Program-made: the position numbers and the translations under genes
Part shown: positions 46,428 through 49,978 of the stretch, piece after piece
Position numbering within the stretch: the stretch's first letter is position 1
Layout: each line of letters begins with the position of its first letter
Assembly (NCBI GenBank): GCA_026707285.1
Contig: JAPOXD010000031.1
Coordinates: forward strand, 1 to 50,700
DNA: 50,700 nt
Direction: 5' to 3'
Source of the DNA: Chloroflexota bacterium
GTDB lineage: Bacteria; Chloroflexota; UBA11872
The notes under the pieces: generated by a model
Told to the model about the DNA's origin: nothing
The model's database searches: none
What the model saw: only the letters and a program-made list of their open reading frames with translations

Positions 46428-46799
46428 CTAATCCGGTCGGTACTTCGAGAGACCCAAGTCGACTGCCACTTTCATGAGTCGCTGGTCGATCGTCCATAAG
46501 TGAGCTGATGCCGCGATCGCCGTAGCCGCGAGCAAGTGGGCGTCGATGTAGCCAATTCCGCAGCCCATGAGTCGATGGTGCTCGATGAACGCAAGCACTT
46601 CCTGATCGTCTGCCACCGGTGCTGGGGGCAACTCTCCCAGCAGTCTGAGCACCTCGGCCCGATTGCGCAGGTGTCCGCAGGCAAGCTCACCGACAACCAT
46701 GGGATGCACGAGCACCTGGTTGTCATGCAGAAGTGGAGAAAGGCGCGTCTCGGCGCCGCGAAGATGGTCAATCCAGACCGCCGTATCGACGACGATCAT
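46428..46799 (-). CDS. vapC: VapC-type PIN-domain toxin
   Basis: A 123-aa PIN RNase. The conserved acids are in place: Asp5 (VVDTAVWIDHL), Glu38 (VVGELACG), Asp86 (YIDAHLLAA) and Asp105 (WTIDQRLMKVA). The fold binds Mg and cleaves specific RNAs such as tRNA or rRNA; the target is unknown. Its ATG overlaps the vapB stop as ATGA, the usual coupled antitoxin–toxin order. It is convergent with the creatininase gene. Confidence 0.92.
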   Translation of the reverse strand: MIVVDTAVWIDHLRGAETRLSPLLHDNQVLVHPMVVGELACGHLRNRAEVLRLLGELPPAPVADDQEVLAFIEHHRLMGCGIGYIDAHLLAATAIAASAHLWTIDQRLMKVAVDLGLSKYRPD

Positions 46800-46993
46800 T
46801 CAGCCGCGGATCGTCGGCGTGGGACGGGAATCAACTGTGGCTCGCTTCCGCCCAGCCGCGCCAGGCGCCGGGCGCTTTCTCGCTCGATGAGGGCACGCAG
46901 CCCCTCGCGGACCAGCGCCGTTTTTCCGTCGATCCCGGTGAGACGCTGGGCTCTGTTCAACAACCGTTCATCGAGATTCAGGGTGGTTCGCAC
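46796..46993 (-). CDS. vapB: VapB-type ribbon-helix-helix antitoxin
   Basis: A 65-aa protein from GTG 46993. MRTTLNLDERLLNRAQRLTG is a ribbon-helix-helix DNA-binding domain of the type II antitoxin class; the basic C-terminus (LARLGGSEPQLIPVPRRR) probably wraps the toxin. It is translationally coupled to vapC. A palindrome overlaps the predicted promoter, as expected for autorepression by the complex. Confidence 0.88.
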   Translation of the reverse strand: MRTTLNLDERLLNRAQRLTGIDGKTALVREGLRALIERESARRLARLGGSEPQLIPVPRRRSAAE

Positions 46994-47218: not shown

Positions 47219-47246
47219 GGAACGATTCGGCCCGAACGCGCGTAGT
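47219..47246 (+). promoter_or_regulatory. ECF-type promoter ahead of the sigma factor
   Basis: GGAAC (47219–47223) and CGTAGT (47241–47246) are separated by 17 bases and lie 44 bases before the sigma start. GGAAC with a CGT-type -10 is the consensus for many ECF sigma factors, suggesting self-activation. Confidence 0.4.
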
Positions 47247-47289
47247 GTCTAGTGGAATACCACCGGAGCGCGGGCCATGAGGGCGGCAC

Positions 47290-47847
47290 ATGACCGATGA
47301 GCAAGCGGTCCTGCGTTGCCAGGACGGCGAGCGGGAAGCCTTCCGCCATCTGGTCGAGCGGTATCAGGATGTTCTCTACGGCACGGCGGTCCTGATGACC
47401 GGGGACCGGGCGCAGGCCGAAGAGCACGTGCAGGAGGCCTTTCTCGCCGCCTGGCGAGGCATGCCGGGCTTTCACAGCGAACGCCCGGTGAAGCCCTGGC
47501 TCATGCGAATCCTCGTGAACACCGTCATGTCCCAGCGCAGACGGCGTGTGGTTTCCACGGTTTCCCTCGAATATGAGAGTGAGGCCGAAGACGCCGCGCG
47601 ACCGGCCGAGGAGATCGAGGCGCAGCACGATCGCTTGGTGATTCGACAAGCGCTGGAAGGTCTGAATCCGGAACACCGGCAAGTCGTCGTGCTGCGCTTT
47701 TTCGCCGGTCTCACGGTTCCCCAGCTCGCCGAAGCCATCGGCGTGCGCGAGGGCACCGTCAAATCAAGGCTGCATCGCGCACTCGGACAGCTCCGAGAGC
47801 AACTGACGACGGACGATGCCAGAGAGGCGTACGGCGATGGCCAGTAA
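47290..47847 (+). CDS. ECF-family RNA polymerase sigma factor
   Basis: A 185-aa sigma-70 family protein of the extracytoplasmic function type. Region 2 (about 10–75) contains DGEREAFRHLVERYQDVLYGTA and EHVQEAFLAAWRGM (-10 recognition). Region 4 (about 128–175) contains LNPEHRQVVVLRFFAGLTVPQLAEAIGVREGTVKSRLHRAL, the helix-turn-helix for the -35. Region 3 is absent. The last 11 bases overlap the next gene, so both are co-translated; that product has the layout of a regulator and could control this sigma factor. Confidence 0.95.
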   Translation: MTDEQAVLRCQDGEREAFRHLVERYQDVLYGTAVLMTGDRAQAEEHVQEAFLAAWRGMPGFHSERPVKPWLMRILVNTVMSQRRRRVVSTVSLEYESEAEDAARPAEEIEAQHDRLVIRQALEGLNPEHRQVVVLRFFAGLTVPQLAEAIGVREGTVKSRLHRALGQLREQLTTDDAREAYGDGQ

Positions 47848-49936
47848 CCACCCCTCGAATCAAGACGTGGAAGGCACGCTGCGCCGGCACTTCGCGGCGG
47901 AGGCCGACGACCTGCGCGCGCCGACGAACCTGTGGGAGTCGCTGGAAGACCGTCTCGAACCGCACCCGGCGCCAAATCCCGTCACGCGCATTCGACGCAA
48001 GATCCTGGCGGCCGCCAAGCAGAACTGGCTGCCGGTCATGGTCACCGGCGGTGCCGTAGCGGTCGCTGCCTCGGCGGTGCTGGTGGCCGGCAATGTCGGG
48101 CAGGGGATGCAGGAAACGGAGGTCGTGGAAAAGACTGTCGTCGTTACCGAATTCAGGGAGGTGATCAAGGAGGTCCCGGTCGAGACGGTTGTGACCAAGG
48201 AAGTCATCAAGGAGGTGCCGGTCGAGACCGTCGTGACGCGAGAGGTAATCAAGGAAGTCCCGGTCGAGACCATTAGGGAAGTCGCGGTCGAGAAAGTCGT
48301 GACGCAGGAGGTGATCAAAGAAGTCGAGGTCATCAAGGAGGTCGCGGTCGAGAAGGTCGTCGAAAAGGAAGTTGTGGTTGAGAAAGTCGTCTCCCAGCCA
48401 AGGGCGGAAGCGATGATGCCGGCCCCGACTCCCGCTGCCACGGCTGCGCCGCCTGCGGCGTCTCAAGCGGCGCCCGCGCCCACCGCCCGGCCGCCTGACA
48501 CCACCTTCCAGGACTACGGGCGCCAGCCGTTCGTCGCCACCGTCGACGACGCAGTGTCGACCTTCAGCCTGGATACCGACCGCACCTCGTACCACTTGGC
48601 GCTCACTTGGGCGCAACAGGGCTACGACATCGAGCCGGACTCGGTGCGGGCCGAGGAATGGATCAACGCCTTCAACTACCAATACGCCCCGCCGCCGGAC
48701 GACTGGGGCTTTGCGATCACCAGCGACCTGGTGGCGCACCCGCTGGACGAGCGCCGGCACCTGGTCCGGATTGGATTCCAGGCGGCGGAAGTCGCCGACG
48801 ACCGCCCGCTCAACGTGACCCTGGTGCTCGACGCGTCGGGCTCGATGGGCGACGGCAACCGGGTGGACATCGCGCGCGCGGCGGCAGAGACCATTCGTCA
48901 AAGCTTGCGCCCGCAGGACCGAGTGGCGGTGGTGCACTTCACTACGGATGTGATTCATCACCTCACCGTGGAGCACTCGGCGCCGGACGCCTATTCGGTG
49001 GAGTCCTCGATTGCGCAGTTGGCGCCGCACGGCAGTACCAACGTCCAGGCGGGACTCAACCTGGGCGTGCAACTGGCGCACCAGGCACGCCTCGAACGAC
49101 CCGAAGCCAACAACTACGTGATCCTGATGTCGGACGGCGTGGCCAACGTGGACGCCACCAACCCGTTCGCGATCCTGGAGTCGGCCTACGACCGGGACGC
49201 CGGCAACCCGCTGCGGCTCATCACCGTGGGCGTGGGCATCAACAACTACAACGATGTGTTGCTGGAGCAACTGGCGCAGCACGGCAACGGCTGGTACCGC
49301 TATCTCAACGATCCGAACCAGGCGCGGGCCACCTTCAGCCGGGCGAACTGGCTGGCGCTGTCCACGCCCTTTGCGGATCAGACCCGGGCCCAGGTCACCT
49401 GGGATCCCGACGTGGTGAAGACCTGGCGGATCATCGGGTACGAGAACCGGGTGACGTCGGACGCCAGCTTCGCGGAGGACCGCAAGGAGTTCGCGGAGCT
49501 GCCGTCGGGCTCGGCCACCACGGTGTTCTACGAGATTGAGCTACACGACCGCGTGCGCGATGGCGACGACGTGACGCTGGGCCGGGTGGAGCTGCGCTGG
49601 GTGGTGCCGGAGACGGGCCAATCGCGCAGCCAGCAGGTCGAGGTGACGGGGCGGAGCAACCTGGGCTTCGGCAGCCCTGAGGCCGACCCGCTGTTGCGGT
49701 TGGGCGGCATTGTGGCGCTGGCGGCGGACCGCTACAGCAGCCTGCCGCGGGGCGCCGGCGACGACGCGGCGGGCGTGTCCACCGACCTGGCCATCCTGCA
49801 AGAGAAGCTGCGGGCGCTGGCCGGCCCCCTGGGCGGCTTGGACGCCTACCGCGACTTCAGCTTCCTCCTGGAACGCATGGCGGAGCGGGCCTACTCGCAG
49901 GCCCAGTCCGAATCCCCCTCCGGCTACAGCCGCTAG
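47837..49936 (+). CDS. Membrane-anchored von Willebrand factor A (YfbK-like) protein, candidate anti-sigma partner
   Basis: A 699-aa protein coupled to the ECF sigma gene. It has a short cytoplasmic N-terminal segment (1–60), one helix at about 64–85, then an outer Val/Glu/Lys repeat stalk (95–188) containing 14-residue EVIKEVPVETVVTK units, a Pro/Ala linker and a large domain. The latter begins YfbK-like (STFSLDTDRTSYHLAL; RAEEWINAFNYQY) and holds a vWFA fold: MIDAS DASGSMG at 332–338, GSTNVQAG and LMSDGVANVD. Its C-terminus matches the YfbK C-terminal region. The cytoplasmic segment has the position of an anti-sigma domain, but no zinc-binding HxxxCxxC is present, so that role is inference. 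The start is ATG 47837. Confidence 0.85.
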   Translation: MASNHPSNQDVEGTLRRHFAAEADDLRAPTNLWESLEDRLEPHPAPNPVTRIRRKILAAAKQNWLPVMVTGGAVAVAASAVLVAGNVGQGMQETEVVEKTVVVTEFREVIKEVPVETVVTKEVIKEVPVETVVTREVIKEVPVETIREVAVEKVVTQEVIKEVEVIKEVAVEKVVEKEVVVEKVVSQPRAEAMMPAPTPAATAAPPAASQAAPAPTARPPDTTFQDYGRQPFVATVDDAVSTFSLDTDRTSYHLALTWAQQGYDIEPDSVRAEEWINAFNYQYAPPPDDWGFAITSDLVAHPLDERRHLVRIGFQAAEVADDRPLNVTLVLDASGSMGDGNRVDIARAAAETIRQSLRPQDRVAVVHFTTDVIHHLTVEHSAPDAYSVESSIAQLAPHGSTNVQAGLNLGVQLAHQARLERPEANNYVILMSDGVANVDATNPFAILESAYDRDAGNPLRLITVGVGINNYNDVLLEQLAQHGNGWYRYLNDPNQARATFSRANWLALSTPFADQTRAQVTWDPDVVKTWRIIGYENRVTSDASFAEDRKEFAELPSGSATTVFYEIELHDRVRDGDDVTLGRVELRWVVPETGQSRSQQVEVTGRSNLGFGSPEADPLLRLGGIVALAADRYSSLPRGAGDDAAGVSTDLAILQEKLRALAGPLGGLDAYRDFSFLLERMAERAYSQAQSESPSGYSR
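48158..48274 (+). repeat. 42-bp tandem repeats inside the VWA gene
   Basis: Two complete in-frame units (48158–48199 and 48200–48241) and a partial third (48242–48274) each encode EVIKEVPVETVVT(K/R). DNA identity is high with mostly third-position changes. The peptide unit is nearly identical to EVVREVPVERVVTQ in the ABC binding protein (bases 37164–37205). Confidence 0.85.
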
Positions 49937-49943
49937 TCCTAAT

Positions 49944-49978
49944 CGGCGCCTGCCGGTCACCCCGACCGGCAGGCGCCG
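49944..49978 (+). terminator. Strong stem-loop after the VWA gene
   Basis: A perfect 15-bp inverted repeat (49944–49958 with 49964–49978; arms CGGCGCCTGCCGGTC / GACCGGCAGGCGCCG) and 5-base loop follow the VWA stop by seven bases. There is no T-run, so it may be a stem-only terminator or an mRNA-stabilising element. Confidence 0.5.

Follow-up and report, generated by a model that had tools for sequence, protein, structure and literature searches.

Class I anti-sigma domains bind their sigma factors through helix 1 and helix 4 (PMC7406223). Proteins in which a sigma factor and its anti-sigma part are fused are already known, namely IutY and the ECF48, ECF52 and ECF53 groups (PMC8999054). YfbK has been noted as ArnB-like (PMC12852372). 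No paper joining a VWA/YfbK module to ECF control was found in the searchable literature, which held few subscription journals and did not include the main ECF reclassification paper.

The window studied here, the whole 50,700-nt stretch of Chloroflexota DNA that was analysed, carries an ECF sigma gene followed by the gene of a transmembrane VWA protein. We interpret the two genes as a self-regulated signalling unit of the sigma/anti-sigma type, and put the probability of this full reading at roughly 0.76. That the pair forms one signalling unit is very likely. The initial annotation had proposed that the ECF sigma factor is partnered by an anti-sigma-like membrane-spanning regulator whose sensor is a VWA domain. 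Linkage, co-divergence, natural fusions and the promoter evidence support this idea well, and the comparative case for the VWA protein as the regulator is strong. The pairing, topology, co-divergence, fusions, promoter and target set were all read from sequence. The features are as follows.

47219–47223, + strand: predicted −35 element GGAAC (exact motif; kept in 31/31 sigma genes)
47241–47246, + strand: predicted −10 element CGTAGT (exact motif; conserved by paralog type)
47290–47847, + strand: ECF sigma factor, 185 aa, regions 2 and 4 (Pfam, NCBIfam)
47837–47847, + strand: 11-nt overlap of sigma stop and VWA start, predicted translational coupling (ORF ends; kept in relatives)
47837–49936, + strand: transmembrane VWA protein, 699 aa, ATG at 47837, proposed anti-sigma-type regulator (Pfam; linkage, co-divergence)
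47837–48028, + strand: cytoplasmic head, approximately residues 1–64 (alignment, no Pfam match, model helices)
48029–48085, + strand: single transmembrane helix, approximately residues 65–83 (hydropathy scan)
48086–48499, + strand: extended stalk of KEVPVE-type repeats, period 42 nt, with an Ala/Pro-rich end (sequence)
48500–48769, + strand: vWF_A (PF12450), residues 222–311, N-terminal part of the YfbK-like module (E 1.2e-18)
48812–49318, + strand: VWA (PF00092), residues 326–494 (E 1.5e-15; fold matches to many VWA domains)
48830–48850, + strand: MIDAS motif DASGSMG (D332, S334, S336, plus T401 and D433)
49370–49552, + strand: YfbK_C (PF12034), residues 512–572, partial (E 5e-12, profile 6–66 of 184)

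The sigma ORF matched Sigma70_r2 (E 2.8e-14) and Sigma70_r4 (E 9.8e-15) in Pfam, and its TIGR02937 score in NCBIfam was 117 bits against a cut-off of 42.9. Region 3 was not found by Pfam. Regions 2 and 4 without region 3, in a protein of about 20 kDa, are the marks of an ECF sigma factor. The 11-base overlap with the VWA gene, described in the initial annotation, agreed with the ORF coordinates, both genes being intact and on the + strand. The same 11-nt overlap was common to nearly all relatives in the family and to a paralog in the same genome, and is therefore not due to chance. A VapBC-like toxin–antitoxin pair (46428–46993, − strand) lies directly upstream of the sigma gene, in divergent orientation.

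The layout first proposed for the VWA protein, a cytoplasmic head of about 60 residues, one transmembrane helix, a repeat stalk and an extracytoplasmic VWA domain, matched the sequence, the Pfam domains and the hydropathy scan. A cytoplasmic domain, one transmembrane helix and an extracytoplasmic domain, as predicted here from sequence and hydropathy, make up the layout of a transmembrane anti-sigma factor. The order PF12450, PF00092 and PF12034, of which YfbK_C was matched in part, defines the YfbK-like VWA family. Most YfbK-like relatives have a lipoprotein N-terminus, which the window protein lacks; the head and the transmembrane helix stand in its place. The MIDAS, taken as intact at the outset, proved to be so: D332, S334, S336, T401 and D433 did not vary among 37 relatives.

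The head has the aligned pattern LR..FAAEA..LRAP.NLW..LE.RL, followed by a basic helix. When the heads of 16 members were compared with Pfam, no match to any anti-sigma family was obtained at E 1. The head alignment contained no Cys/His pattern, and the Hx3Cx2C-type zinc motif was absent. The claimed lack of the zinc-binding anti-sigma motif therefore held, and Pfam recognised no other domain in this segment. Neither a Pfam anti-sigma match nor Hx3Cx2C, either of which would mark a class I anti-sigma domain, was thus present. A head profile against PDB chains gave nothing credible and no similarity to a known anti-sigma domain, and a profile of the VWA core gave only general VWA matches.

The sigma factor, head and core were under purifying selection (dN/dS 0.07–0.30). 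The stalk sequence varied freely between relatives, from KEVPVE repeats to collagen-like and Ala-rich stretches. Part of the stalk of one relative (L082, 2302–4326, − strand) is collagen-like, GPPGPRGPAGPQ, which suggested that the stalk can be replaced by another extended repeat. The KEVPVE repeat (window 48138–48400) is found again in some 20 further open frames on other contigs of the genome, among them those of DUF4349 lipoproteins of the predicted regulon. A 14-nt inverted repeat lies 3' of the VWA stop (49944–49978), without a T run after it, and is also present after the paralog in L006.

For the analysis of linkage, YfbK-like loci were fetched from the phylum, the family and named genomes of many phyla, which gave 128 VWA loci, and only loci with enough upstream DNA were counted. 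Of the VWA genes with a long cytoplasmic N-terminus, 34/42 directly followed a sigma gene. Of the lipobox type, 69/70 had no adjacent sigma gene, and the one locus called sigma-adjacent (L177) is probably a regex error. The association between N-terminus type and sigma adjacency gave a Fisher p of 7e-15, which is indicative only, since the rows are related. None of the eight long-N-terminus loci without an upstream sigma gene had the Chloroflexota head, and one of them (L093) has a sigma gene directly downstream. The initial annotation would have counted mostly unlinked relatives of the pair as a refutation; head-bearing relatives were sigma-linked in every assessable case.

Pairs with the same head occurred in relatives named Tepidiformaceae and SAR202 and in other Chloroflexota. 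In Planctomycetota, the YfbK-type proteins encoded after sigma genes had heads of other kinds. On a contig from Desulfobulbaceae, what appears to be the end of a sigma gene precedes a head-bearing VWA gene. Two genomes carry a second VWA copy behind the pair, in which the recognisable head is lost (degenerate), a lipobox is gained and no sigma gene of its own is present. Tandem second VWA genes behind the pair were seen at L085 (5649–7535) and L114 (2931–4865), each with its own GGAACG promoter. YfbK relatives without the head are common, which means that the VWA module as such is not tied to sigma control.

The genome has a second, paralogous pair on contig 12, where the genes again overlap by 11 nt and stand behind the same promoter. 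All six genomes of the genus carry both pairs, designated A (the window) and B. Between A and B the sigma factor and the head were about 53–61% identical, and within each type about 90%. The VWA cores of A and B in one genome, on the other hand, were 88–98% identical. The distance correlation between sigma and head was 0.966 in the genus and 0.876 overall, against 0.25 in the genus between sigma and VWA core. As a gene that adjoins a sigma gene and co-diverges with it, the VWA gene behaves as expected of a transmembrane anti-sigma gene.

The trees agreed with these distances. Types A and B fell into separate clades when the tree was built from the sigma factor or the head, whereas the core tree placed the two copies of G048 together, and likewise those of G098. 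The nucleotide identity between A and B rose sharply between stalk and core and dropped after the stop; in G048 it was about 100% over some 500 nt. The core was homogenised between the paralogs L006 and the window (L007 2465–3934), with sharp edges at the stalk and the stop. Gene conversion of the sensor part, with each sigma factor keeping its own head, would be the simplest reading of these sequences.

In a sister genus (G057, G074 and G090), sigma factor, head, transmembrane helix, stalk and another VWA domain form one chain. The VWA part is gone from several relatives at the fusion locus, and these look decayed. The intact fused genes also have a GGAACG-type promoter. At L281 (2208–4517, − strand) and L282 (1481–3880, + strand), an ECF-type sigma domain is fused to a long ankyrin-like repeat region; these are open frames of 770–800 aa in two genomes of the sister genus.

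A natural sigma–head fusion was modelled with AF2 as a single chain of 269 residues, using 45 sequences. The pTM was 0.71 and the head helices were confident. The modelled head has two helices and, ahead of the transmembrane segment, a third that is basic. The class I arrangement has four helices, of which helix 4 lies on sigma region 2. The sigma domains of the model matched SigW of SigW/RsiW with Z 17.7 (156 residues, 2.8 Å) and CnrH of CnrH/CnrY with Z 16.2. Superposition on SigW, CnrH and RpoE of RpoE/NepR gave 2.8–3.5 Å, and whole holoenzyme-bound sigma factors were fitted only at about 27 Å. In the model, the sigma factor takes the compact form known from anti-sigma complexes, which may be what AF2 yields for an ECF sigma factor alone. 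This fused-chain model addresses the predicted sigma–head interaction, whose absence the initial annotation had named as counting against the idea. That the head is the sigma-contacting part is very likely.

The model of the window VWA protein had head helices at residues 8–26, 32–40 and 48–62 and an ArnB/Sec23-like VWA core, and its stalk was modelled without confidence. The top Foldseek matches of the core were 8s05, 4fx5, 6fpy and 5a8j. As in ArnB/Sec23-like proteins, the modelled VWA domain is inserted in a split beta-sandwich with a helical end. VIA gave Z of about 20 over 340–355 residues at an rmsd of 7–8 Å, which indicated that the domain placement is loose.

An exact match to GGAAC-N17-CGTAGT occurs once in the window, at 47219–47246, and sites with two mismatches are no more frequent there than expected by chance. 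The window alone is therefore no proof of a promoter, which comes from conservation in relatives. All 31 sigma genes examined had a GGAACG-N15-GCRTA-type promoter (GGAAC-N17-C[G/A]TA), upstream of the gene start, in most at about −71, and the ECF-type GGAAC/CGTAGT promoter that had been claimed before the pair was borne out in this form. The −10 element was CGTAGT in 6/6 A genes and CGTACT in 6/6 B genes, and so follows the sigma paralog. Across the six genomes of the genus, GGAACG-N15-GCGTAST gave 37 sites and the reversed motif none. The sigma gene would thus stand behind an ECF-type promoter of its own specificity (31/31; reversed control 0).

Thirty of the sites were read without choice. 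Ten preceded sigma genes, among them the sites L216 and L224, which stand before the type B sigma genes of G048 and G098. The other 20 all preceded a gene with an N-terminal hydrophobic segment, against a window background of 13/36. Hand-picked sites had given 41/42 exported products, and the unpicked set is the more trustworthy. The genome-wide motif search that had been suggested at the outset gave eight own-genome sites, all before either one of the pairs or a gene for an exported protein. The predicted targets include SIMPL, DUF4349, LRR, PD40, RCC1-repeat and alpha-2-macroglobulin proteins. An alpha-2-macroglobulin-type gene stands behind a GGAACG promoter in both genera (L241, 24–4556, − strand; L266, 742–5118, + strand), its identity confirmed by Pfam in L241 only.

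Three genomes without the pair (G202, G021 and G400) had 6 sites versus 7 for the reversed motif. Their use as a pair-less control was set aside, because G202 has a decayed fused sigma gene and two plausible target sites. That G202 keeps two plausible target promoters with only a decayed fused sigma gene counts against our reading.

The following mechanism would account for these findings. The sigma factor would direct RNA polymerase to GGAACG-N15-GCGTA promoters, its own included, and thereby drive a limited set of genes whose products are exported surface proteins (DUF4349, SIMPL, LRR, RCC1-repeat and alpha-2-macroglobulin). Translational coupling would provide the VWA protein at levels matching the sigma factor, and its cytoplasmic head would hold the sigma factor at the membrane. 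Outside, the VWA module on its stalk would sense the state of the envelope or surface, be it a ligand, a divalent metal or tension, and the sensed state would free the sigma factor, possibly by proteolysis. Binding, inhibition, the signal and the release step we infer. Sensing of a metal or ligand by the VWA domain is a reasonable idea, and sensing of force is another.

Inhibition is the most likely sense in which the sigma factor would be controlled. The head might instead be a positive regulator or chaperone with a FecR-like pro-sigma activity, the sigma factor being active only after the VWA protein was signalled or cut, with release of head and sigma together. The one-chain sigma–head fusions are compatible with such a membrane-tethered pro-sigma that needs processing, and pairing and co-divergence do not tell activation from inhibition. 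However, single-transmembrane proteins cotranscribed with ECF sigma factors are usually inhibitory (PMC7406223), and the decayed fusions without the VWA part, kept in several genomes, agree about equally well with an inhibitor that has lost its sensor. We regard an activating head as quite improbable. It is far less probable still that the VWA protein is a mere structural surface protein, a target and not a regulator of the sigma factor, with the overlap reflecting compact gene packing. Such a role would suit the exported nature of all the other promoter targets and the headless second VWA copies with their own promoter in two genomes. It would leave unexplained the cytoplasmic head, restricted to sigma-adjacent genes, as well as the sigma–head co-divergence that the VWA core does not follow, and the one-chain fusions; and the second copies, which have no sigma gene of their own, have a degenerate head and a lipobox.

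An alternative that shares the core of the sigma/anti-sigma reading differs from it only in the sensing step. The VWA domain would be an anchor or adhesion module, and the signal would be read by a site-1 protease, the stalk or another protein. The free variation of the stalk between relatives fits this, as does the fact that no ligand is known for YfbK-like modules. The invariant MIDAS residues and the purifying selection on the VWA core speak against it, and we consider it unlikely.

A wider reading joins several of these observations. The head would be an undescribed class of anti-sigma domain, and the YfbK-type VWA module a general outside sensor that several lineages (Chloroflexota, Planctomycetota and perhaps Desulfobacterota) have combined with sigma-binding heads of different kinds. 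Gene conversion would keep the sensor the same in the two pairs of the genus, so that one signal would drive two sigma factors that differ slightly in the −10 element they prefer. We put this forward tentatively, with somewhat less than even odds.

To our knowledge, YfbK-type VWA proteins are widespread and have no known function. Here the module would form the outer part of a proposed sigma regulator whose output can be read at the GGAACG promoters, and a reporter could therefore test its response to ligand, metal or force. This would add a sensor type to ECF signalling. The head domain is missed by current family libraries, and such pairs are therefore probably annotated as two unrelated genes.

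We class the pair with the transmembrane anti-sigma/ECF type, with a proposed VWA sensor that is undescribed for ECF sigma factors in the searchable literature. It resembles RseA, RsiW and RskA, which have a class I anti-sigma domain, in that the gene directly follows and overlaps the sigma gene and encodes a short cytoplasmic N-terminus, one transmembrane helix and an extracytoplasmic sensor; the sigma factor likewise appears autoregulated from a GGAAC promoter. Unlike these, the window head has no class I Pfam match or zinc motif, and the part proposed as sensor is a stalk-borne VWA module of the YfbK type. The short head with few helices recalls the class II proteins CnrY and NepR, and the sigma conformation in the fusion model resembles CnrH/CnrY and RpoE/NepR, whereas the head had no profile similarity to any PDB chain. 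Escherichia coli YfbK and its lipoprotein relatives share the order of vWF_A, VWA and YfbK_C, the MIDAS and the ArnB/Sec23-like core (PMC12852372), but most of them start with a lipoprotein signal and adjoin no sigma gene.

IutY (ECF243) and the ECF48, ECF52 and ECF53 proteins have sigma factor, anti-sigma part and transmembrane helix in one chain (PMC8999054), as do the fused L262, L275 and L088. The latter differ in carrying an outside VWA domain and in being paralogs of a two-gene unit, and the window itself has two separate genes. Parallels in arrangement are seen in Planctomycetota. Their CAYLLGE head (L176, L192, L193 and L199) is of another kind, weakly zf-HC2-like in L199 (E 0.003, below cut-off). 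In these loci, and also in L170, the sigma gene is directly followed, as in the window, by a YfbK-type VWA gene with a long cytoplasmic N-terminus.
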